A stretch of DNA of 56,447 bases from an uncultured Bacteroides sp. (GTDB taxonomy: Bacteria > Bacteroidota > Bacteroidia > Bacteroidales > Bacteroidaceae). The position numbers and the translations under genes are program-made. Positions 4,446 to 27,104 of this stretch are shown piece after piece; positions within the stretch are counted from its first letter, which is position 1, and the number at the start of each line of letters is the position of its first letter. Location of the stretch: positions 1-56,447 of the forward strand of contig CAMTPH010000005.1 of NCBI GenBank assembly GCA_947074345.1, given 5' to 3'. Below the pieces are notes generated by a model. The model had not been told where the DNA came from. It worked only from the letters and a program-made list of their open reading frames with translations, and did not search any database.

Positions 4446-5255
4446 TTATTCTATATCGTTATTTTCGTCAATTTCTTTTTGTTTATCTCTTATCATCAAG
4501 ATACTCATTTCGTATAAAAAGTAGAGTGGTATAGCAACAACGCTTAATGTAAATGGATCGCCCGTTGGAGTTATAACTGCTGCAGCAATTACAATAATTA
4601 CTACTGCGTGTCTTCTGTATTTTCGAAGAAAACTCTTATTTACCAATCCCAATAGTGATAATAACCAAGTAACAAGTGGCAATTCAAATGCTAATCCCAT
4701 GCATAAAACTAACATCATGAAATTATCAATATATGAATTAAGTGATATTACATTTTCTATTTGAGAACTCAAATGATAGGTTGAAAGAAATCGAAGTGTT
4801 AAGGGATAAACCATGAAATAACCAAGTAGCACTCCAATATAAAACATAACTGTTCCAATGGTTAAGGCTTTTTGTACCCCTTTTCTTTCGTTTGGATAGA
4901 GAGCTGGATTGATAAACTTCCAAACCTCGAAAAATAAATATGGCATTGCTGTAACTACCGACATCCAAAATGCAGTTGACATATGGACGAAGAAAGGAGC
5001 AGCAAGATTGATGTTTATTAAATTGACATGAAACTCTTGTGTGAAGAACTCGTCTTTTAAATCTAGTTTGTGTCCTATTAAACGCAATAAATCATAAAAG
5101 ATAAAGTCATTGTGACATGGAGCCAAAATAACATTATCGAAAAGAAAGGGCATGGCAACAAAATAACCGATGGCTAAAATAAACCAAATCCCAATGACAC
5201 GAAATAACACCTTGCGCAATTCATCGAGGTGATCCCAAAAAGTCATCTCAGCCAT
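4446..5255 (-). CDS. tatC: Sec-independent protein translocase TatC
   Basis: MTFWDHLDELRKVLFRV N-terminus, multi-TM protein, TPTGDPFTLSVVAIPLYFLYE; adjacent to tatA. Confidence 0.95.
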   Translation of the reverse strand: MAEMTFWDHLDELRKVLFRVIGIWFILAIGYFVAMPFLFDNVILAPCHNDFIFYDLLRLIGHKLDLKDEFFTQEFHVNLININLAAPFFVHMSTAFWMSVVTAMPYLFFEVWKFINPALYPNERKGVQKALTIGTVMFYIGVLLGYFMVYPLTLRFLSTYHLSSQIENVISLNSYIDNFMMLVLCMGLAFELPLVTWLLSLLGLVNKSFLRKYRRHAVVIIVIAAAVITPTGDPFTLSVVAIPLYFLYEMSILMIRDKQKEIDENNDIE

Positions 5256-16013: not shown

Positions 16014-16050
16014 AGCCATATCAATAATATAATCGTATTATTGATATGGC
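16014..16050 (+). terminator. Terminator after susD
   Basis: AGCCATATCAATAATA-taatcg-TATTATTGATATGGCTTTT. Confidence 0.75.
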
Positions 16051-16084
16051 TTTTATCATTCTTTTGGGTCTACATTTAAGAATA

Positions 16085-16251: not shown

Positions 16252-16698
16252 TTAAACCATCTCTCTTACCATCTTCAATACAGTTGGGATAACTCTTTCT
16301 ACCTCGGGCGAAAGATCCATCCCTATCTCTTGATAGTTTTTAATTGAAATCGTTATAAGATCTATTTCAGGAATATTTTCTTGCACAATCATACTCTCTA
16401 TCATATCGCGCAAGCCAAATTCATGCGAACTAAGCAGTTGCGGATAATCTTTCGAGAATTTAGGTTTAATCTTTTTGATAGTACCCGCAGGCGAGTCGTC
16501 GAGTGTTGCATCTATCATCACAATTCTATCAAACTCTTGCAAAACACCAATTATTCCAACCCCACCGGTGCCACCATCAAGTACCTCTACATGCGATGGC
16601 AATTGTTCTTTCTCAAGAGCCTGTACAGCATGAATGCCTACACCCTCATCTCTCAGCACTAGATTGCCTATTCCTAATATTAAAACTCTCTCTCTCAT
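16252..16698 (-). CDS. hyaD: [NiFe]-hydrogenase maturation endopeptidase (HyaD/HybD family)
   Basis: LILGIGNLVLRDEGVGIHAVQAL and LDGGTGG motifs; last gene of hydrogenase operon. Confidence 0.93.
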   Translation of the reverse strand: MRERVLILGIGNLVLRDEGVGIHAVQALEKEQLPSHVEVLDGGTGGVGIIGVLQEFDRIVMIDATLDDSPAGTIKKIKPKFSKDYPQLLSSHEFGLRDMIESMIVQENIPEIDLITISIKNYQEIGMDLSPEVERVIPTVLKMVREMV

Positions 16699-16710
16699 CT
16701 TCTATAAATA

Positions 16711-17502
16711 TTAATTTGAATGTGCAGTTTTCTCTTTCTTTTCTATCTCTTCAATATCCTTTTTGATTTTCTTTTCTTTCTTTAAAATTTCTTCTCGCTC
16801 TAATTCTCCTTCATAGTCTTTTACTACGTCTTCTTCAACGAATTTCCAACCACCAATAATTGATGATGCGATACCGCTTCTTTCGATGTAGTCATGATAA
16901 AATACTAAGTATATATGTACAATCATAAAGAGTATGAAACACCACATCAGGTAATAATGAATTTGCTTAACCACCATCAACCCACCTAAGCTGAATGCTA
17001 ACGATTGAAAACTTTCGGCACCAACTACCTCGGCCGTAGGTGACCATAAACACAAACCTGTTATTGCTTGAACAACTAGCATAACAAATAGTCCCCCATA
17101 AGTAAAGGCTGCTAAACTATTGTGGCCAATATCATAAATAGGTTTCGGAGTTAAAAGAAAGATATCAACTTTGAGTGTATCGAATATACCTCTCCATTGT
17201 TTTTTGGTTAAGGGAACATAGTTGTTCCAACGCGCAAATTTGTTGCCGGCAAACAACCAGTATATTCTTACAAGGAAATTTACGATTAGAATTACACCTA
17301 GAGTCATATGACCAAAGCGAAGATATCCAAACCAATATCCAAACTGTTTTGCTCCCTCTGTGTAGGCTAATCCAGGAGGATATGCTATCAGTATCCCAGA
17401 TACGATAAGAAAAAAGATACAAAATGCATTTACCCAATGGAATATTCTGACAGGAAGCTCCCAAACATAAATCTCTCTTAATGGAACTTTCTTTTCTATC
17501 AT
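16711..17502 (-). CDS. hyaC: Ni/Fe-hydrogenase b-type cytochrome subunit, with unusual charged C-terminal tail
   Basis: VYVWELPVRIFHW-type start (YVWELPVRIFHWVNA), 4-TM b-cytochrome, HIYLVFYHD; tail REEILKKEKKIKKDIEEIEKKEKTAHSN. Confidence 0.92.
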   Translation of the reverse strand: MIEKKVPLREIYVWELPVRIFHWVNAFCIFFLIVSGILIAYPPGLAYTEGAKQFGYWFGYLRFGHMTLGVILIVNFLVRIYWLFAGNKFARWNNYVPLTKKQWRGIFDTLKVDIFLLTPKPIYDIGHNSLAAFTYGGLFVMLVVQAITGLCLWSPTAEVVGAESFQSLAFSLGGLMVVKQIHYYLMWCFILFMIVHIYLVFYHDYIERSGIASSIIGGWKFVEEDVVKDYEGELEREEILKKEKKIKKDIEEIEKKEKTAHSN

Positions 17503-17517
17503 AACACTTGATTTTAA

Positions 17518-19245
17518 TTAAATAGTATCCAACTTATGTATATGACTTCCGTCTTCAGTATATAGATGTACAGCGCAAGCCATACAAGGGTCGAATGAGT
17601 GAATAGTACGTATGATTTCGAGCGGAGCTGTAGCATCGTATACTGGTACACCGATTAATGAGGCTTCAAAAGCAGAGCGTTGTCCTTTAGGATCGCGTGG
17701 CGAACCATTCCAAGTTGTAGGAACTACCATCTGATAACGTTTTACCTTTTCATCTTCTATATCTACATAGTGCGCTACCATGCCACGAGGAGCTTCACAT
17801 ACAGCATATCCTTGTGCTTTTTTAGGCCATGTTTTGGGTTCCCAATAGAAACCGTTAAACATGCGGTCATCACCACCTTTAATGTTTTTTACTAGCTGTC
17901 CATAGAAGTCACTCATCCATTCAGAAACTAATGTAGCTTCCATAGCACGACCAAGTATGCGACCAATAACAGAGTATAATACATCTGTATCTGCATTCAG
18001 TTTCTTTAAGCATCTATTTGTCAAATCGACTATAGGTTCATTGCCAGCAGCATAGTTAACAATACATCTAGCTAATGGTCCTACCTCCATTGCCATACCT
18101 TTGTATCGTGGAGTCTTTATCCAACTGTATGGCTCGTCATGATTAAGGTAATCATAAGGAGGCGTTTTGCCTGTATAGTTTAGAATTGTTTCGCCAACAG
18201 ATGGGTGCAGTCCCACATCTTTGCCTTGCGGATAGTCATACCATGCATTGTTTACATACTCAACCAATCCATCCATTGCCATCGGATCAAATTCTTCTAC
18301 ACGACTTAAGTTTCTATCGGTAACTATACCTCGCTTCATCATGTACGAATTCAAATCACCAAAATGAGTCATCGGGAAGTCACCACCAGCGATGTAGTTT
18401 CTTAAACCACCACCTACTTTTGTCCATTCAGGATAGTAAGAAGCGATAGCGAGTACATCGGGCAAATAAACTTGCTTAATAAAAATCTCGGCCTGTTGAA
18501 TAATTTGGTTTACCCAGCTCAATCGGTCTATGTTAATCGCATTTGGACCATCTACATTGATGGCACAAGCCATACCACCTACCAAGAAGTTAGGATGCGG
18601 ATTCTTTCCTCCAAATATCGTCTGTATTCTTACAATCTCTTTTTGGATTTCGAGAGCCTCTAAATAATGTCCTAATGCAACAAGATTGACTGCAGGAGGA
18701 AGTTTATATTCAGGATGTCCCCAATAGCCGTTAGAGAATAGGGTGAGTTTGTTAGACTCTACGTACTTCTTTACTGTATTTTGTACATCGGTGAAGTATC
18801 CGATTGAGTTTTTAGGCCATGCTGATAAGCTTTGTGCTATGGCGGCTGCCTCTTTAGGGTCGGCTTTGAGTGCGCTCATCACATCTACCCAGTCTAACGC
18901 TTGCAATTGGTAGAAGTGCGTAATATGATCTTGCATAGTTAATGCACCAAGCATGAGGTTTCTAACCATTTCTGCATTAGGTGGTACAACTATATTGAGT
19001 GCATTCTCAACAGCACGCACTGATACTAGTGAGTGCATTGAAGTACAAACACCACACACTCTTCCTACAAATGCCCATACATCTCGAGGATCTCTATTTT
19101 GAACGATAATCTCTATGCCTCTAACCATAGTACCGGTGCTATAAGCATCAGTAATCATACCGTTATCAATATCTGCTTCTATTCTTAAGTGCCCTTCTAT
19201 TCTGGTTACAGGGTCAACTACTACTCTTTTTGTCATAATATTCAA
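17518..19245 (-). CDS. hyaB: [NiFe]-hydrogenase large subunit
   Basis: RVCGVCTSMH (L1) and DPCMACAVH (L2) followed by a 15-aa C-terminal extension, expected substrate of the HyaD protease. Confidence 0.97.
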   Translation of the reverse strand: MNIMTKRVVVDPVTRIEGHLRIEADIDNGMITDAYSTGTMVRGIEIIVQNRDPRDVWAFVGRVCGVCTSMHSLVSVRAVENALNIVVPPNAEMVRNLMLGALTMQDHITHFYQLQALDWVDVMSALKADPKEAAAIAQSLSAWPKNSIGYFTDVQNTVKKYVESNKLTLFSNGYWGHPEYKLPPAVNLVALGHYLEALEIQKEIVRIQTIFGGKNPHPNFLVGGMACAINVDGPNAINIDRLSWVNQIIQQAEIFIKQVYLPDVLAIASYYPEWTKVGGGLRNYIAGGDFPMTHFGDLNSYMMKRGIVTDRNLSRVEEFDPMAMDGLVEYVNNAWYDYPQGKDVGLHPSVGETILNYTGKTPPYDYLNHDEPYSWIKTPRYKGMAMEVGPLARCIVNYAAGNEPIVDLTNRCLKKLNADTDVLYSVIGRILGRAMEATLVSEWMSDFYGQLVKNIKGGDDRMFNGFYWEPKTWPKKAQGYAVCEAPRGMVAHYVDIEDEKVKRYQMVVPTTWNGSPRDPKGQRSAFEASLIGVPVYDATAPLEIIRTIHSFDPCMACAVHLYTEDGSHIHKLDTI

Positions 19246-19264: not shown

Positions 19265-20503
19265 TTACTTAGGCTGATCAGCCGGTGGATTAGGATCTTG
19301 ATTTCTCATGTACTTTAATTGATCTACTCTGATCTCATCAATCTTCTTTTCCAAGTTTACAATTCTATCATTAAGATCATTGTCAGTCTTTTCGCTATCA
19401 TCTTTGTTGAGGCTTGTATCATCCATCTGATTTTTGATGAGCTTACGTTTAACAACATTGGTCACAATGCCATGAGCAGTTACTCCAGCTAATGCAACTA
19501 CACCCAAACCAACACCAATATCGGTAGCTGTAACGCTAGCGCCAATACCTGTAATAGATGGTAAGGTATGATATAGTGGCTCTTTATCCCAGAAGTTTGG
19601 TTCGGCACAGCCAATACAACCATGTCCCGATTGAATGGGATAGCTTACATTGTTATTCCACTTAATGATACCGCACGAGTTGTAAGTGTTAGGACCTTTA
19701 CATCCCATCTTGTATAAACAATATCCTTTTTTAGCATTTTCATCATCAAACGACTCAACAAACAAACCTGCATCATAGCATGGGCGGCGATAACATGTAT
19801 CATGAATACGACGACCATAAAATACTTTAGGTCTACCTTGATTGTCAAGTTCGGGAAGCTTATCGAAGGTTACATAATAAGATATAACGCCTGCCATAAC
19901 ATCGGCAATAGGAGGACAACCTTGTACATTGACTACTGGTTTACCAGGATGCAACTTGTGTACAGGTTTAGCTTTGGTTGGATTAGGATAAGCAGCTTGT
20001 ATACACCCTGAACTTGCACAGTTACCCCATGCAATGATTGCGGCAGCTCCTTTGGCTCCTTCATTAAAAACATCTAAAGCGCTATTGCCCGCTATTGTAC
20101 AATAACCAGGATTTCCTGTTGGTACGGCACCTTCAACTACCATTATATATTTGCCATAATTCTCTTCCATAGCTTGCTTTCTTACCGCTTCAGCTTGTTC
20201 GCCGGCAGCAGCCATGAGCGTATCGGTATAGTCAAGAGATATTAACTCGAATAGAATCTCTTGAATAACAGGATGTGAAGCTCTGATGAATGATTCGCTG
20301 CAGCAAGTACACTCTTGGAAGTGATACCAGATAACGACAGGCTTAGGATTCTTTTCAAACTCTTCAACCATTTTGGCTACACCAGTTGAGCTTAACCCTA
20401 ACATACCACCCATCAATCCACAGAACTTAAGGAATTGTCTTCTCGAATATCCCTTATCTGTTAGCTCTTGATAGAAAGTTTTAGTCTTCTTTTTCATACT
20501 CAT
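19265..20503 (-). CDS. hyaA: [NiFe]-hydrogenase small subunit with Tat signal and C-terminal membrane anchor
   Basis: SRRQFLKF twin-arginine motif; ECTCCSES and WGNCASSGC proximal-cluster cysteines; RIHDTCYRR, GHGCIGCAE; C-terminal TM. Confidence 0.97.
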   Translation of the reverse strand: MSMKKKTKTFYQELTDKGYSRRQFLKFCGLMGGMLGLSSTGVAKMVEEFEKNPKPVVIWYHFQECTCCSESFIRASHPVIQEILFELISLDYTDTLMAAAGEQAEAVRKQAMEENYGKYIMVVEGAVPTGNPGYCTIAGNSALDVFNEGAKGAAAIIAWGNCASSGCIQAAYPNPTKAKPVHKLHPGKPVVNVQGCPPIADVMAGVISYYVTFDKLPELDNQGRPKVFYGRRIHDTCYRRPCYDAGLFVESFDDENAKKGYCLYKMGCKGPNTYNSCGIIKWNNNVSYPIQSGHGCIGCAEPNFWDKEPLYHTLPSITGIGASVTATDIGVGLGVVALAGVTAHGIVTNVVKRKLIKNQMDDTSLNKDDSEKTDNDLNDRIVNLEKKIDEIRVDQLKYMRNQDPNPPADQPK

Positions 20504-20521: not shown

Positions 20522-21565
20522 TTAGCAAATTCTTGGTAGCTGCTCTCCGCTCATCATCTCAATAATTCTTTTATTGCCAAAGGATCCTTTTAAATAAACC
20601 ACATCATTCAGTGTATCAATAACCTTTCCTATAATTTGTGCATCATTACCATGTTTACTATTTCTAATAATATCGAGTGCTTGTTGTGCATATTCATTCT
20701 CAACAAACACCAACAGAATCCCTTCGTTTGCCATGTACAATGGATCCATTCCTAATAATTCGCAAGCAGCATTAACTCCCTCGCTAATGGGGAGTGCCTC
20801 TTCTTCTATTTCGATATTCACCTTGGCAGTTTGAGCAATTTCGTTTAACGTACTCGATAAACCACCTCTTGTGGGGTCTCTCAATACATGAATTTGATCG
20901 GGTATCTCCGACATCAAGTTACCCACTATATCATTCAAAGAAGCAGTATCGCTTTTCACATCAGTTTCAAAACCGAGGTTGTTTCTGGTCGATAGAATAC
21001 AAGTGCCATGTTCTCCAATCTGGCCGGTTACGATTATAACATCATTTAACTTGACTTTGTTGGGTGAGATGGATATATTTTTTTGAATTACGCCTATTCC
21101 CGAAGTATTGATATATAATTGATTACCTCTGTTTCTCTCTATGACTTTCGTATCGCCTGTTACGATGTATATACCTGCCTTTTTTGCTGCTTGAGCCATT
21201 GAACGAACAATTTCTATTAGATCTTTAATTGGGAACCCCTCTTCAATGATAAATCCAGCCGATAGATATTTAGGGATAGCTCCACTACATAAGAGGTCGT
21301 TTACCGTTCCATTGATAGCTAATTCGCCAATATTACCACCCGGAAAGAACAAAGGGTCGACAACGAACGAATCGGTGGTGAAAGCTATTTTATTGCCCTC
21401 TAATGTTATCTGTGCACTATCGTGTTCTTGCTCTAAATACTCATTCTTAAAGTATTTATAGAAGATAGAACTAATGAGCTGCTGTGTAAGCTTGCCACCT
21501 CCTCCATGTGCCAACTGTATGGTGTCATGGTTGTATATAGGCATTGCGCATTGAATAGGTATCAT
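20522..21565 (-). CDS. hypE: Hydrogenase maturation factor HypE
   Basis: LAHGGGGKLTQQLI; C-terminal PRIC with terminal Cys required for the cyanide carrier. Confidence 0.96.
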   Translation of the reverse strand: MIPIQCAMPIYNHDTIQLAHGGGGKLTQQLISSIFYKYFKNEYLEQEHDSAQITLEGNKIAFTTDSFVVDPLFFPGGNIGELAINGTVNDLLCSGAIPKYLSAGFIIEEGFPIKDLIEIVRSMAQAAKKAGIYIVTGDTKVIERNRGNQLYINTSGIGVIQKNISISPNKVKLNDVIIVTGQIGEHGTCILSTRNNLGFETDVKSDTASLNDIVGNLMSEIPDQIHVLRDPTRGGLSSTLNEIAQTAKVNIEIEEEALPISEGVNAACELLGMDPLYMANEGILLVFVENEYAQQALDIIRNSKHGNDAQIIGKVIDTLNDVVYLKGSFGNKRIIEMMSGEQLPRIC

Positions 21566-21577
21566 GTTATATTGAGT

Positions 21578-22666
21578 TTAAATATGTTTTTGATATCGAT
21601 AGTATGCAGCGCACACTCCTTCTGATGACACCATAGGCGCACCAAGAGGCAATTCGGGTTTACAGCTAAAACCGAAGTAGGGACAGTCTTTGGGGCTTGC
21701 AATGCCTTTCATTATTTCACCAACTATGCAAGGCTCTTTTTGAATAACTGTTGGCTTCTCTTGATTGAACCTAATACAAGCGTCAAGATGTGCATACTCT
21801 TTGCGAAGTTTAAAACCGGTTGATGGTATATATCCTAATCCACGCCAACCTTGATTGGCTATTTCAAATATTGTTTCTAGCACCTCTTTTGCTTTGGCAT
21901 TACCATTGTCAGATACAATCCGTGCATATGGGTTTTCTACTGTAAAGCGATTATTTTCTAACTGCTTGATGTTTGTATAAATGCCGAGCAGTATATCGAC
22001 GGGCTCAAATCCGGTTACGGTAAATGGTATTTTATATTTTTGTGCCATTCTTTTATAATCACTCAATCCGGTTATTGCACATACATGACCGGCAGCAAGT
22101 ATTCCGTTTACTTCAAAGTCGGGCAAACCACACATATGTTCAATAATGGGTGGAACAGCAAATAATGCAGTTAGCAGTGATAGATTCTTGATATTCTGTT
22201 TCTCTATCTCTAATACTACCTGTCCGTGTATAGGGGCGGTTGTTTCGAAGCCAATAGCAAACAGTACGATTTCTTTCTGCGGATTATCATTTGCTATTTG
22301 AATGGCATCAAGCGGTGAATAAATGGTTCTGATATCTGCTCCCATTGATTTAGCAGTCAGTAAATCGTGTTTACTGCCCGGTACTCGTAGCATATCACCA
22401 AATGAGAGTATAATAACATTTTTGTTTAGTGCTAAATCTATTGCTGTATCAATCGTTTTTTGTGGTGTAACGCATACGGGGCAACCTGGTCCATGAATGA
22501 TTTTTATCTCGTTAGGAAGCATCTCTTCCAAGTTGTATTTAGCTATGGCATGAGACTGACCTCCACAAACGTCCATAATCTTCCATGGTTGTGTTGTTAT
22601 ATGATGTATGGCATCAATAATTCGTTTGCCATATTCAGCACTTCTATATGGATTCTCCGCTTTCAT
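21578..22666 (-). CDS. hypD: Hydrogenase maturation factor HypD
   Basis: IHGPGCPVCVTP, GFETTAP, FGFSCKPELPLGAPMVSSEGVCAAYYRY. Confidence 0.96.
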   Translation of the reverse strand: MKAENPYRSAEYGKRIIDAIHHITTQPWKIMDVCGGQSHAIAKYNLEEMLPNEIKIIHGPGCPVCVTPQKTIDTAIDLALNKNVIILSFGDMLRVPGSKHDLLTAKSMGADIRTIYSPLDAIQIANDNPQKEIVLFAIGFETTAPIHGQVVLEIEKQNIKNLSLLTALFAVPPIIEHMCGLPDFEVNGILAAGHVCAITGLSDYKRMAQKYKIPFTVTGFEPVDILLGIYTNIKQLENNRFTVENPYARIVSDNGNAKAKEVLETIFEIANQGWRGLGYIPSTGFKLRKEYAHLDACIRFNQEKPTVIQKEPCIVGEIMKGIASPKDCPYFGFSCKPELPLGAPMVSSEGVCAAYYRYQKHI

Positions 22667-22902
22667 AGTTTTAGATCTAACCGATCTACTTTGTTTAAAG
22701 CTTCTACGGTAAGTCGAGCCTCTTCCTCATCGATTACCGATATAGCCATTCCCGCATGAGCCAATACATAATCTCCCTCTTTGGCTTCTACCCATGCCAC
22801 ACAGATTTCTTTGGTGATACCTCCAAAATCAACTATTGCATAAGTTATTATATCTTGTGGATTGATAAGTTGAACGACTCTTCCTGGTATTGCTAAACAC
22901 AT
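22663..22902 (-). CDS. hypC: Hydrogenase maturation chaperone HypC
   Basis: MCLAIPGRVV N-terminus, DYVLAHAGMAI; overlaps hypD by 4 nt. Confidence 0.95.
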   Translation of the reverse strand: MCLAIPGRVVQLINPQDIITYAIVDFGGITKEICVAWVEAKEGDYVLAHAGMAISVIDEEEARLTVEALNKVDRLDLKL

Positions 22903-22985: not shown

Positions 22986-25271
22986 ATGCTCAGGCAATAT
23001 GAAATAACCATCAACGGACTAGTGCAGGGCGTTGGGTTCAGACCATTTATATATAGACTTGCTCACGATTTAAACCTATGCGGAACAGTAGCAAACAACA
23101 CATCAGGAGTATTGATTCAATTGCAATCTACTGTAGATGAGAAAGATGTATTCATTGATAGGATACAAAGAGAGAAACCGCAGATATCAGAGATAACCCA
23201 AATCAACATACAAGAGACTATATTAAATGCGCAGTTTCATCAATTTATAATTGCAGCTAGCAATCATTCATCTCACGATATAACGAGGATTAGTCCTGAC
23301 ATTGCTATTTGTCAACAATGCTTGAATGATTATCATCATCAGCCGCACCGTATCAATTACCCGTTTACCAATTGCACGTATTGCGGTCCTCGATTCTCTA
23401 TTGTTCAGTCTATCCCATACGATCGTCCTTTTACTACGATGAGCGATTTTAAGATGTGTGATATTTGTAAGGATGAATATAAAGATGTGTCAGATAGACG
23501 ATTTCATGCACAACCCATTGCTTGCAATCATTGTGGGCCTTCATATGTTGCCTATTGTAAAGTAGGCGATGAATTAAACGAGATAACTGATTATCGTTTG
23601 ATTGTAGATAAGATAGTCGATGTGCTTAACCATGGTGGTATAGTTGCATTAAAAGGAGTAGGTGGTTTTAATTGGTTGGTCGATGCTTCCAATGATTTGG
23701 CTGTACGAAGATTGCGTGAGTTGAAACGGCGTTATGCCAAACCATTTGCTATAATGTGCGCTGATGAAGAGTGGATAAAGGATAATATGTATGTTAGCCA
23801 AACTGAAAGGAACGAACTTCATTCTTGGCGAAGAGCCATCGTATTGCTAAATGAGAAGACGAAACTATCAGAACAGATTAATGGTAGTTTAGGGACTGTT
23901 GGCGTAATGCTTCCTTATTTGCCCATTCATTATGAACTATTCGAGAAAAGTGGATTGAAAGCAATAGTCATTACGAGTGCCAACAAGAGTGGTGAACCAA
24001 TGCTTCGCGATAATGATGAGGCTAAAGAGTATCTGATAGAACACTCTGATTTATACGTTGAGCACAACCGAACAATATACAATCGAGTAGACGACTCGGT
24101 GGTGCGTGTTATTGATGATAAAGCACAAGTCATGCGAAGAGCACGTGGCTATGCACCCGAACCGATTATTAATGTAGACTCAGTGGATGGCGGATTGGCT
24201 TTTGGTGCCGAGATGACTGCTGTTCTTGCTTTAGGTATCGGTCATCAGATATTGATGAGTCAGTATATAGGCGATTTATCAGACTATGAAGTTTATGAAG
24301 CCTACAAAGATACTCTTCAGCGTTTATCATCTTTATTTAAGTTCACGCCTCGTTATTTAGTTTGCGATAGTCATCCTCAATATTTATCATCCAAACTGGC
24401 TATGCAAATGGCCAAGGATAAAGGGCTACCATTGTATCAAGTGCAACATCATCATGCTCATGCCGTATCGGTTATGGTAGAATATGGGTTGACTGAAGAG
24501 TGTTTGGCACTATCGATGGATGGAGTAGGGTATGGCACAGATGGACAGAGTTGGGGATGTGAAGTTTTAGCCTGCGACCGTACTCAGTTTGACAGACTGA
24601 CTCATTTGCCTTATGTGTCGTTGCCGGGAGGCGATAAAGCAGCCAAAGAGTGTTGGCGTATGGCTGCTAGTTATCACTATTCACTTTATGGTTCGTTAGA
24701 GTATTTACCGCAACCATTGATAAACGAGATAGGCGAAGAGAAGATAAATCAGTTGGAACGACTTCTTGTTTCTCCGCTCAATAGTCATAACACTTCGTCG
24801 GCAGGGCGTTTGTTTGATGCGATTGCTGCATTGTTGGGTATCTGTTATAGTAATACTTATCAAGCAGAAGCTGCCATGAAGTTAGAACAAGCAGCGGCAT
24901 CTGCACAAAGTGATACCTGTTTATATCCGTTAGATGAAACAAAAGAGTGGGATATGAATTCTCTTTTTGATGGTATAATGAATGATATGAAGCAAGATGA
25001 AGATATAAATGTTATAGCTATGCGGTTTCATCGAAGTCTTACTGCTCAGTTGGTATCTGTCTTAGAAAGATATATTAAAAAGACTGGTTTGCAAAAAGTG
25101 TTGTTGACAGGAGGTGTATTTCAAAACAGATTGCTCTCTGAGTTGTTGATTAAAGAGATAAAGGCACGCGGATGGATGGTCTATTATCCAACAATAATCC
25201 CTTGCAATGATGGGGGAATTGCCGTTGGACAGTTGGGTGTTGTATCGGCATTGTTAAATCAAAAAACATAA
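22986..25271 (+). CDS. hypF: Carbamoyltransferase HypF
   Basis: Acylphosphatase domain (GLVQGVGFRPFIYR), CxxC zinc fingers, YrdC and Kae1-like domains (HHHAHAVSVMVEYG). Confidence 0.96.
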   Translation: MLRQYEITINGLVQGVGFRPFIYRLAHDLNLCGTVANNTSGVLIQLQSTVDEKDVFIDRIQREKPQISEITQINIQETILNAQFHQFIIAASNHSSHDITRISPDIAICQQCLNDYHHQPHRINYPFTNCTYCGPRFSIVQSIPYDRPFTTMSDFKMCDICKDEYKDVSDRRFHAQPIACNHCGPSYVAYCKVGDELNEITDYRLIVDKIVDVLNHGGIVALKGVGGFNWLVDASNDLAVRRLRELKRRYAKPFAIMCADEEWIKDNMYVSQTERNELHSWRRAIVLLNEKTKLSEQINGSLGTVGVMLPYLPIHYELFEKSGLKAIVITSANKSGEPMLRDNDEAKEYLIEHSDLYVEHNRTIYNRVDDSVVRVIDDKAQVMRRARGYAPEPIINVDSVDGGLAFGAEMTAVLALGIGHQILMSQYIGDLSDYEVYEAYKDTLQRLSSLFKFTPRYLVCDSHPQYLSSKLAMQMAKDKGLPLYQVQHHHAHAVSVMVEYGLTEECLALSMDGVGYGTDGQSWGCEVLACDRTQFDRLTHLPYVSLPGGDKAAKECWRMAASYHYSLYGSLEYLPQPLINEIGEEKINQLERLLVSPLNSHNTSSAGRLFDAIAALLGICYSNTYQAEAAMKLEQAAASAQSDTCLYPLDETKEWDMNSLFDGIMNDMKQDEDINVIAMRFHRSLTAQLVSVLERYIKKTGLQKVLLTGGVFQNRLLSELLIKEIKARGWMVYYPTIIPCNDGGIAVGQLGVVSALLNQKT

Positions 25272-25275
25272 GAGT

Positions 25276-25626
25276 ATGCACGAACTATCCATAGCTATGA
25301 GTATAGCCGATTTAGCTCTCGATGAGGCTCGCAAAGCAAATGCACTGAAAATAAAAGAGATTGAAATAGAAGTGGGTGAGTGGGCAGGTGTAGATTGTGA
25401 TTCGTTGATGTTTTCGCTAGATGCTATATTAAAATCTGAACCCTCATTGAAGGAGACAGTAGTAAACTTACATAAGTTGCAACCAATCATGCATTGTGAT
25501 GGTTGTGGACAAAATTTTAAACCGGATGTTCAGTATATCATGCAATGTCCAAATTGCGACTCCGAGCAGATAACTCTTTTGCAAGGCAGAGAGTTATCAC
25601 TCAAATCGCTTTTGATAGACGATTAA
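25276..25626 (+). CDS. hypA: Hydrogenase nickel-insertion protein HypA
   Basis: MHELSIAMSI N-terminus, CDGC and CPNC zinc ligands. Confidence 0.96.
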   Translation: MHELSIAMSIADLALDEARKANALKIKEIEIEVGEWAGVDCDSLMFSLDAILKSEPSLKETVVNLHKLQPIMHCDGCGQNFKPDVQYIMQCPNCDSEQITLLQGRELSLKSLLIDD

Positions 25627-25647: not shown

Positions 25648-26355
25648 ATGTGTACAGACGACAAGCATCACCACCATCATCATGATGAACATGGTGAACA
25701 TTCTCACAATCGGGTAATCGAGGTTAAGAAAGACATTCTATCGGTCAATCAATCCATGGCCGAACGCAATCGTGGGTACTTTGATGCCAAGAATATATGC
25801 GCTATTAATATAGTTAGTTCACCGGGATCGGGCAAGACTACTTTGCTAGAGCAAACTATACAGATGCTCAAAGACAAAGTTTCTATTACGGTTATAGAAG
25901 GCGATCAAGAAACCTCGCTCGACGCCAATCGTATTGCTGCAATGGGAATCAGTTCGTTGCAGATTAATACAGAAAACGGTTGCCATCTTGATGCATCTAT
26001 GGTAAACGATGCCGTGAAGAAAATTGCACCACAAGACAAATCGCTTCTTTTTATTGAGAATGTAGGCAACTTGGTTTGTCCCGCTATGTTCGATTTGGGC
26101 GAAGATATCAGAGTGGTGGTAGTTAGCGTAACCGAGGGCGATGATAAACCTTTGAAATATCCATATATGTTTGAAAGTGCCAATGTGTGCATTATCAATA
26201 AGATTGATTTAGCTCCTTACTTAAAGAGTAATCCTGAAATGCTGAAGAGTAATGCTTTGAAAGTAAATCATCATCTTACCGTCTTTGAAGTTTCGGCTCA
26301 AGAAGGAACAGGCATGGATAAATGGTGCGATTTTCTGTTGAATGAAGTGAAATAG
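25648..26355 (+). CDS. hypB: Hydrogenase nickel-incorporation GTPase HypB with His-rich N-terminus
   Basis: MCTDDKHHHHHHDEHGEHSH; P-loop SSPGSGKTTLLE; ENVGNLVCPA. Confidence 0.97.
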   Translation: MCTDDKHHHHHHDEHGEHSHNRVIEVKKDILSVNQSMAERNRGYFDAKNICAINIVSSPGSGKTTLLEQTIQMLKDKVSITVIEGDQETSLDANRIAAMGISSLQINTENGCHLDASMVNDAVKKIAPQDKSLLFIENVGNLVCPAMFDLGEDIRVVVVSVTEGDDKPLKYPYMFESANVCIINKIDLAPYLKSNPEMLKSNALKVNHHLTVFEVSAQEGTGMDKWCDFLLNEVK

Positions 26356-26528: not shown

Positions 26529-27104
26529 ATGGATTTATTGTTTGATAAAATAGCGAAAGAGTATGCGCTTTCTCCAACTCAAATCGAATTACTATTGGCC
26601 GAAATGAAGCTTGTTAGTTTTCGCAAAGGAGATTTTGTGGTACAAGAAGGTGAACGCAATGATTCTTTCTATCTTCTTAAGAGTGGGGTATGGCGCAGCT
26701 TTAGAATGAATGATGGCGAACAAATGACATTGTGGTTCGCTTCAATGGGCGAGTTTGTTTTTCCTATCTGGGGATATGCCTATGGAGAGCCATCGAAGAC
26801 TACTATTGAGGTCGAAGCAGACTGCGAGGCATTAATGGTTTCTAAAAAACGCATCAACGAGCTTTGTTCTACATCATTAGAAATGGCAAACATAATACGC
26901 ACCGTATTTGAGCATCATGCCTTTTGGGCAGAGAATTTTCTTCTCTTCTTTGCCGATCATGTTAGTGCAGAACAACAGTATTTAGCCATCATGCAAAAGA
27001 ATCCCGAAATATTGCAATTGGTTTCGCTAAAGAAGTTGGCATCTTATCTATTTGTAACTCCACAATCATTGAGTCGTATACGCGCTTCATTAAAAAAGAA
27101 ATAA
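26529..27104 (+). CDS. Crp/Fnr-family transcriptional regulator
   Basis: cNMP-binding-like domain (FRKGDFVVQEGERNDSFYLLKSG) and C-terminal HTH (KKLASYLFVTPQSLSRIRASL). Confidence 0.92.
   Translation: MDLLFDKIAKEYALSPTQIELLLAEMKLVSFRKGDFVVQEGERNDSFYLLKSGVWRSFRMNDGEQMTLWFASMGEFVFPIWGYAYGEPSKTTIEVEADCEALMVSKKRINELCSTSLEMANIIRTVFEHHAFWAENFLLFFADHVSAEQQYLAIMQKNPEILQLVSLKKLASYLFVTPQSLSRIRASLKKK

Follow-up and report, generated by a model that had tools for sequence, protein, structure and literature searches.

A predicted group 1d-type, six-cysteine uptake [NiFe]-hydrogenase in an uncultured Bacteroides

Organization of the hydrogenase locus

The window, a 56,447-nucleotide stretch of DNA from an uncultured Bacteroides sp. 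(contig CAMTPH010000005.1 of assembly GCA_947074345.1), carries a [NiFe]-hydrogenase locus in which hypC, hypD, hypE, hydA, hydB, a cytochrome b gene and hyaD follow one another on the minus strand, and hypF, hypA and hypB lie divergently on the plus strand. Its genes, together with tatC of the same window, are as follows (best family or structure matches in brackets).

4446-5255, minus strand: tatC, of the export system that the small subunit would use (PF00902, 2e-62)
16252-16698, minus strand: HyaD/HybD-type maturation endopeptidase (TIGR00072, 3e-34)
16711-17502, minus strand: cytochrome b subunit of the HyaC/CybH type, predicted membrane anchor and quinone reductase (TIGR02125, 7e-48, above cut-off)
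17518-19233, minus strand: hydB, hydB/hyaB-type catalytic large subunit, 571 aa (PF00374, 1e-213; PDB 3myr_B, 9e-204, and Hyd-5, 3e-193)
19265-20503, minus strand: hydA, hydA/hyaA-type [NiFe]-hydrogenase small subunit, 412 aa (TIGR00391, E 7e-139; PDB HoxK, 1e-120)
20522-21565, minus strand: hypE (TIGR02124, 2e-138)
21578-22666, minus strand: hypD (TIGR00075, 1e-134)
22663-22902, minus strand: hypC (PF01455, 8e-24)
22986-25271, plus strand: hypF (TIGR00143, 1e-218)
25276-25626, plus strand: hypA (TIGR00100, 3e-22, slightly below cut-off)
25648-26355, plus strand: hypB, with a His-rich N-terminus (TIGR00073, 4e-81)

Neighbouring structural genes are separated by only ~10 to 30 bases, which fits a single transcript. 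Promoter-like sites did not exceed shuffled expectation. The order hydA-hydB-cytb-hyaD is common among Bacteroidota loci, and the P. distasonis locus has the same arrangement as that of the window. The cytochrome b subunit conserves His 22, 65, 127, 182 and 196. A strong stem-loop (17 pairs, followed by a T tail) at 16014-16051, between a susD-like gene and hyaD, is probably a terminator shared by these two convergent genes.

Directly beyond hypB, at 26529-27104, stands a gene for a cNMP-binding-domain (CRP/FNR-like) regulator; because none was found adjoining hypB in relatives, a conserved role in regulating the hydrogenase locus is improbable. The original prediction had also taken ahpCF and a fur/perR-like gene in the same window as fitting oxygen exposure. 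This argument carries no weight, since fur and ahpF, unlike hypB, are not conserved neighbours in relatives, and a linkage of either gene to the locus was rejected. Tat was likewise rejected as a hydrogenase-specific co-occurrence, TatC being present in 98 of 101 relatives and near-universal in the order.

Iron-sulfur ligands of the small subunit

HydA has an ATG start, a Tat signal, ligands for three Fe-S clusters, a C-terminal transmembrane helix (read from the sequence and from alignment to HyaA) and a charged C-terminal tail. Three of its motifs are central to what follows.

20426-20446, minus strand: twin-arginine motif SRRQFLK, HydA residues 20-26 (sequence; TIGR01409, 1.9e-4)
20300-20311, minus strand: CTCC motif, in which C67 corresponds to Hyd-1 C19, the first supernumerary cysteine (alignment)
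20003-20020, minus strand: CASSGC motif, in which C167 corresponds to Hyd-1 C120, the second supernumerary cysteine (alignment)

The codons fall exactly where they had been predicted: within ECTCCSES, C65 is encoded at 20311-20309 and followed by T66, C67 (20305-20303) and C68 (20302-20300), and within GNCASSGC, C162 and C167 are encoded at 20020-20018 and 20005-20003. We aligned HydA using MAFFT with E. coli HyaA and HybO and C. necator HoxK, all taken from annotated records; with an offset of 45, the mature numbering of HyaA places Cys or His at all 13 known ligand positions. HydA C65/C67/C68/C162/C167/C196 match HyaA C17/C19/C20/C115/C120/C149, and C67 and C167 also fall at the same positions of HoxK, so that the proposed equivalence to Hyd-1 C19 and C120 holds exactly. 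The distal and medial ligands likewise align with those of HyaA (H234/C237/C262/C268/C277/C296/C299), the distal His/Cys3 set, the medial Cys3 set with Pro242, and Glu76 all being kept; altogether, 13/13 Fe-S ligands and the small-subunit Glu76 are the same in HydA and Hyd-1. Positions 19 and 120 are Gly in HybO and Cys in HydA, which therefore lacks the glycine pair typical of standard group 1 enzymes. As judged from the alignment, the match is not due to chance, because the positions are homologous, the homologue is full-length and the residues are conserved in relatives. HydA shows 51% identity with HoxK, 49% with HyaA and 39% with HybO, and its best PDB matches are the O2-tolerant HoxK (1e-120) and HyaA (2e-116).

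Two further features of HydA were observed. Residue 242 (19778-19780) is Cys in place of the RPHFDAG His common to HyaA, HoxK and HybO, and relatives have N, F, Y, C or A at this site. Long, charged, coiled-coil-like tails end both HydA (19265-19460) and the cytochrome b subunit (16711-16850); the closest relatives and Barnesiella share the HydA tail, which is short in Muribaculaceae-type and Marinilabiliales relatives.

The large subunit and the Glu73 position

HydB keeps the active-site cysteines as well as Asp118, Arg509, Asp574 and His229 (alignment), and its C-terminus reads DPCMACAVH followed by a 15-residue tail that is predicted to be cleaved. Its top PDB match is HydL of A. vinosum, an enzyme of the O2-sensitive type, which scores above Hyd-5. 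One substitution bears directly on O2 behaviour.

19063-19065, minus strand: Gly57 of HydB (codon GGA), at the Glu73 position of O2-tolerant large subunits (alignment)

Glu73 is conserved in O2-tolerant enzymes, and Salmonella Hyd-5 needs both this residue and the large-subunit His229 for full tolerance; in its E73A variant, inhibition by O2 was complete when the potential was high, ~50% of the activity was kept at -0.059 V, and recovery was incomplete (PMC3940037). Among 119 rows of Bacteroidota and related large subunits with a residue at position 73, duplicate fetches included, Gly is found in 67, Glu in 30, Gln in 9, Met in 7, Ala in 5 and Ser in 1. Since Gly73 is shared by relatives whose lineages include aerobes (Mucilaginibacter and Chitinophagales are examples), its presence alone is no proof of O2 sensitivity. 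Moreover, Phaeodactylibacter, whose enzyme is named as 1d, has Gln here, so that Glu73 is an associated rather than a defining trait of group 1d.

Phylogeny, distribution and four-cysteine members

In a small-subunit tree built without the columns of the two supernumerary cysteines, HydA joins HyaA, HoxK and HupS in a clade of 68 rows (100/97), with A. vinosum, A. macleodii, D. vulgaris and HybO outside; it also groups with Phaeodactylibacter xiamenensis (L042; 1d in PMC5037454, matched by species name). By gene content, alignment and phylogeny, it is thus near certain that the product of the locus is a membrane-bound uptake [NiFe]-hydrogenase of the six-cysteine, group 1d type. The predicted grouping with O2-tolerant-type rather than standard enzymes was borne out, and the uptake assignment stands as that of a putatively cytochrome b-linked enzyme. 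Membership of group 1e, a candidate raised by the A. vinosum match of HydB, was rejected by the same tree. That match and the missing Glu73 would also suit a standard O2-sensitive hydrogenase with coincidental cysteines; contradicted by alignment, clade and conservation alike, this reading is highly improbable.

The six cysteines are widespread among relatives: both extra residues are present in 85 of 86 rows of a similarity-based set, in which the window's own gene is represented twice, and in 28 of 30 loci of a family-based, evenly drawn Bacteroidales set, the other two having Gly at both positions. These two four-cysteine small subunits, L117 (the same gene as L005; genome G076) and L118 (genome G549), belong to the clade and carry the motifs ECTGC and CASAGG/CSSYGG. 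As L117 is nested among six-cysteine enzymes (97/89), the G076 enzyme probably lost both extra cysteines jointly; L118 sits on a long basal branch, and its four-cysteine state may be ancestral. CydA (cytochrome bd subunit I) was not detected in G076, a genome 96% complete, and is present in G549; with only two cases, no correlation between the four-cysteine state and CydA absence can be drawn.

A 2015 survey had found only six-cysteine enzymes in the Cytophaga-Flavobacterium-Bacteroides group, and four four-cysteine Firmicutes enzymes inside the six-cysteine group (PMC4486115); HydDB classes the Bacteroidetes enzyme of Phaeodactylibacter as 1d (PMC5037454), and a 2025 gut study names 1d hydrogenases of Parabacteroides (PMC12578642). 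Six-cysteine Bacteroidetes hydrogenases are therefore already known in kind, the surprise attached to finding one in a Bacteroidales-type genome falls away, and the sole addition to the known picture is that four-cysteine members exist in Bacteroidales.

Within the genus, hydA was found in 7 of 160 genomes, all at 85-100% identity, and the matching named records are Bacteroides MAGs; a host habitat of the sister MAGs was not found in the literature. Forty-two of 394 genomes in an evenly drawn Bacteroidales sample pass the family cut-off, and relatives extend to Flavobacteria, Chitinophagales, Saprospiraceae, Chlorobiota and a few other phyla. From these counts and this spread, the hydrogenase is a phylum-wide, patchily held enzyme. 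Two records deserve separate mention. NZ_OY725764.1 (L089), a circular 'plasmid 19' of P. distasonis (57.7 kb), bears the complete hydrogenase locus, with genes for mltG, acetate--CoA ligase and glycerol kinase beside it; the molecule resembles a piece of chromosome, the alternative being an unusual mobile copy. In a single MAG (JAAVDA01), two contigs encode the same small-subunit protein (L024 and L025), reflecting either a duplication or an assembly artefact.

This distribution bears on a possibility that we consider doubtful, namely that the six cysteines are a relic of the clade with no present role towards O2, the cluster being kept through ancestry or for its redox properties in an enzyme of purely anoxic fumarate respiration. 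Retention of the cysteines regardless of lineage, the patchy occurrence within the genus and the existence of two four-cysteine enzymes, one in a genome with no detectable CydA, speak for such a history; against it, the six cysteines are kept almost everywhere alongside CydA, which is present in 42 of 46 hydA-positive genomes, and the other four-cysteine genome has CydA as well.

Small-subunit maturation proteins

HyaE was not found in the window's own genome, where gene absences count as weak evidence because the assembly is a draft (84% complete); HyaF (HupH_C) was found in 0 of 46 hydA-positive Bacteroidales genomes, and BLAST with HyaE/F and HoxO/Q/R/T gave no match near Bacteroidota loci. 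The equivalent HupGHIJ proteins of R. leguminosarum are held to be an adaptation to O2 that is less needed at ultra-low O2 (PMC3534401). HyaE/HyaF (HoxO/HoxQ) are associated with Proteobacterial members and do not define group 1d.

Proposed function and O2 behaviour

The window's genome also has CydA, a cytochrome b558 of the fumarate reductase/SDH family and one [FeFe]-hydrogenase. From these genes and those of the locus we infer an electron route, a catalytic direction and an acceptor. HydAB would be matured by HypA-F and HyaD, exported folded via Tat and anchored by the transmembrane helix to a di-heme-type cytochrome b. H2, supplied by the cell's own [FeFe]-hydrogenase or by neighbours, would be oxidised in the periplasm, with electrons travelling by way of the proximal cluster (predicted [4Fe-3S]) and then the medial and distal ones to cytochrome b, and from there to menaquinone. 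Given CydA and the fumarate-reductase cytochrome b, the H2 is likely spent on fumarate or trace O2, with fumarate reductase as the likely acceptor when O2 is absent and cytochrome bd when traces of it are present.

In laboratory work that speaks for this reading, the C120-Fe3 bond is crucial to the super-oxidised state and a C19G/C120G exchange yields a near-cubic [4Fe-4S] cluster (PMC10583674). Of the O2 tolerance originally proposed, the six cysteines and the clade speak in favour; because Gly replaces Glu73 and HyaE/HyaF-type proteins were not found, tolerance would be at most partial. Assembly is expected to require anoxic conditions or very little O2, and the enzyme is expected to withstand transient O2 rather than to work in air.

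A fully O2-tolerant hydrogenase serving H2 respiration under aerobic or microaerobic conditions at oxic-anoxic interfaces, as first suggested, appears unlikely, if less so than coincidental cysteines. Both supernumerary cysteines and CydA are present, aerobic Bacteroidota such as Phaeodactylibacter, for which HydDB predicts aerobic H2 oxidation (PMC5037454), carry relatives with the same six cysteines, and lineages with aerobes share Gly73; set against this are the exchange of Glu73 itself, the missing HyaE and HyaF, the unconserved fur and ahpF neighbours, and cytochrome bd as the only oxidase checked. H2 oxidation at such interfaces is possible, but does not follow from the cysteine motif, because HydDB assigns to group 1d both aerobic and O2-tolerant anaerobic respiration (PMC5037454). 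Taken as a whole, the evidence is best explained, with good confidence, by a 1d-type six-cysteine H2-uptake enzyme that is cytochrome b-linked and at most partially O2-tolerant.

Somewhat short of an even chance, in our estimate, is the broader proposal that Bacteroidales six-cysteine hydrogenases are a reduced O2-tolerant form, in which the [4Fe-3S] cluster was kept, Glu73 and the HyaE/HyaF route are missing, and some lineages lost both cysteines together. If true, the clade would offer a natural series along which the components of O2 tolerance can be told apart, and anaerobes could assemble a [4Fe-3S] cluster without HyaE/HyaF-type proteins. The enzyme itself offers an ordinary route for H2 use by gut Bacteroides. 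Its wider relevance is that the six cysteines, a widely used marker of O2 tolerance, are present in a large anaerobe-rich clade where Glu73 is mostly missing, as are the known small-subunit maturation proteins. The cysteines by themselves are therefore no sufficient basis for calling an enzyme tolerant; the natural four-cysteine members provide ready-made comparisons.

Comparison with known systems

E. coli Hyd-1 (HyaABC) and S. enterica Hyd-5 share with the window's enzyme the six-cysteine proximal site, Glu76, all ligands, the combination of Tat signal, transmembrane helix and cytochrome b, and a HyaD-type protease. The window differs in lacking hyaE/hyaF, in the Gly of HydB at position 73, in Ser for Trp of CASWGC, in a longer C-terminal tail and in the His-to-Cys exchange at residue 242, with HydA and HyaA 49% identical. 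The membrane-bound hydrogenase of C. necator (HoxKGZ) has the same six cysteines and architecture at 51% identity, but is accompanied by HoxO, HoxQ, HoxR, HoxT and HoxV, the first four of which have no homologues near Bacteroidota loci. A. vinosum HydSL (3myr), the closest solved large subunit by score, has Gly/Gly at the two cysteine positions and lies outside the clade. Closer relatives are found within the phylum: the 1d enzyme of Phaeodactylibacter xiamenensis belongs to the same clade (55% identity, six cysteines) but comes from an aerobe and has Gln at position 73, and those of Parabacteroides (P. distasonis, goldsteinii and gordonii) match the window in operon layout, the six cysteines and Gly73, with HydA ~60% identical and differing in its shorter C-terminal tail (365 aa).
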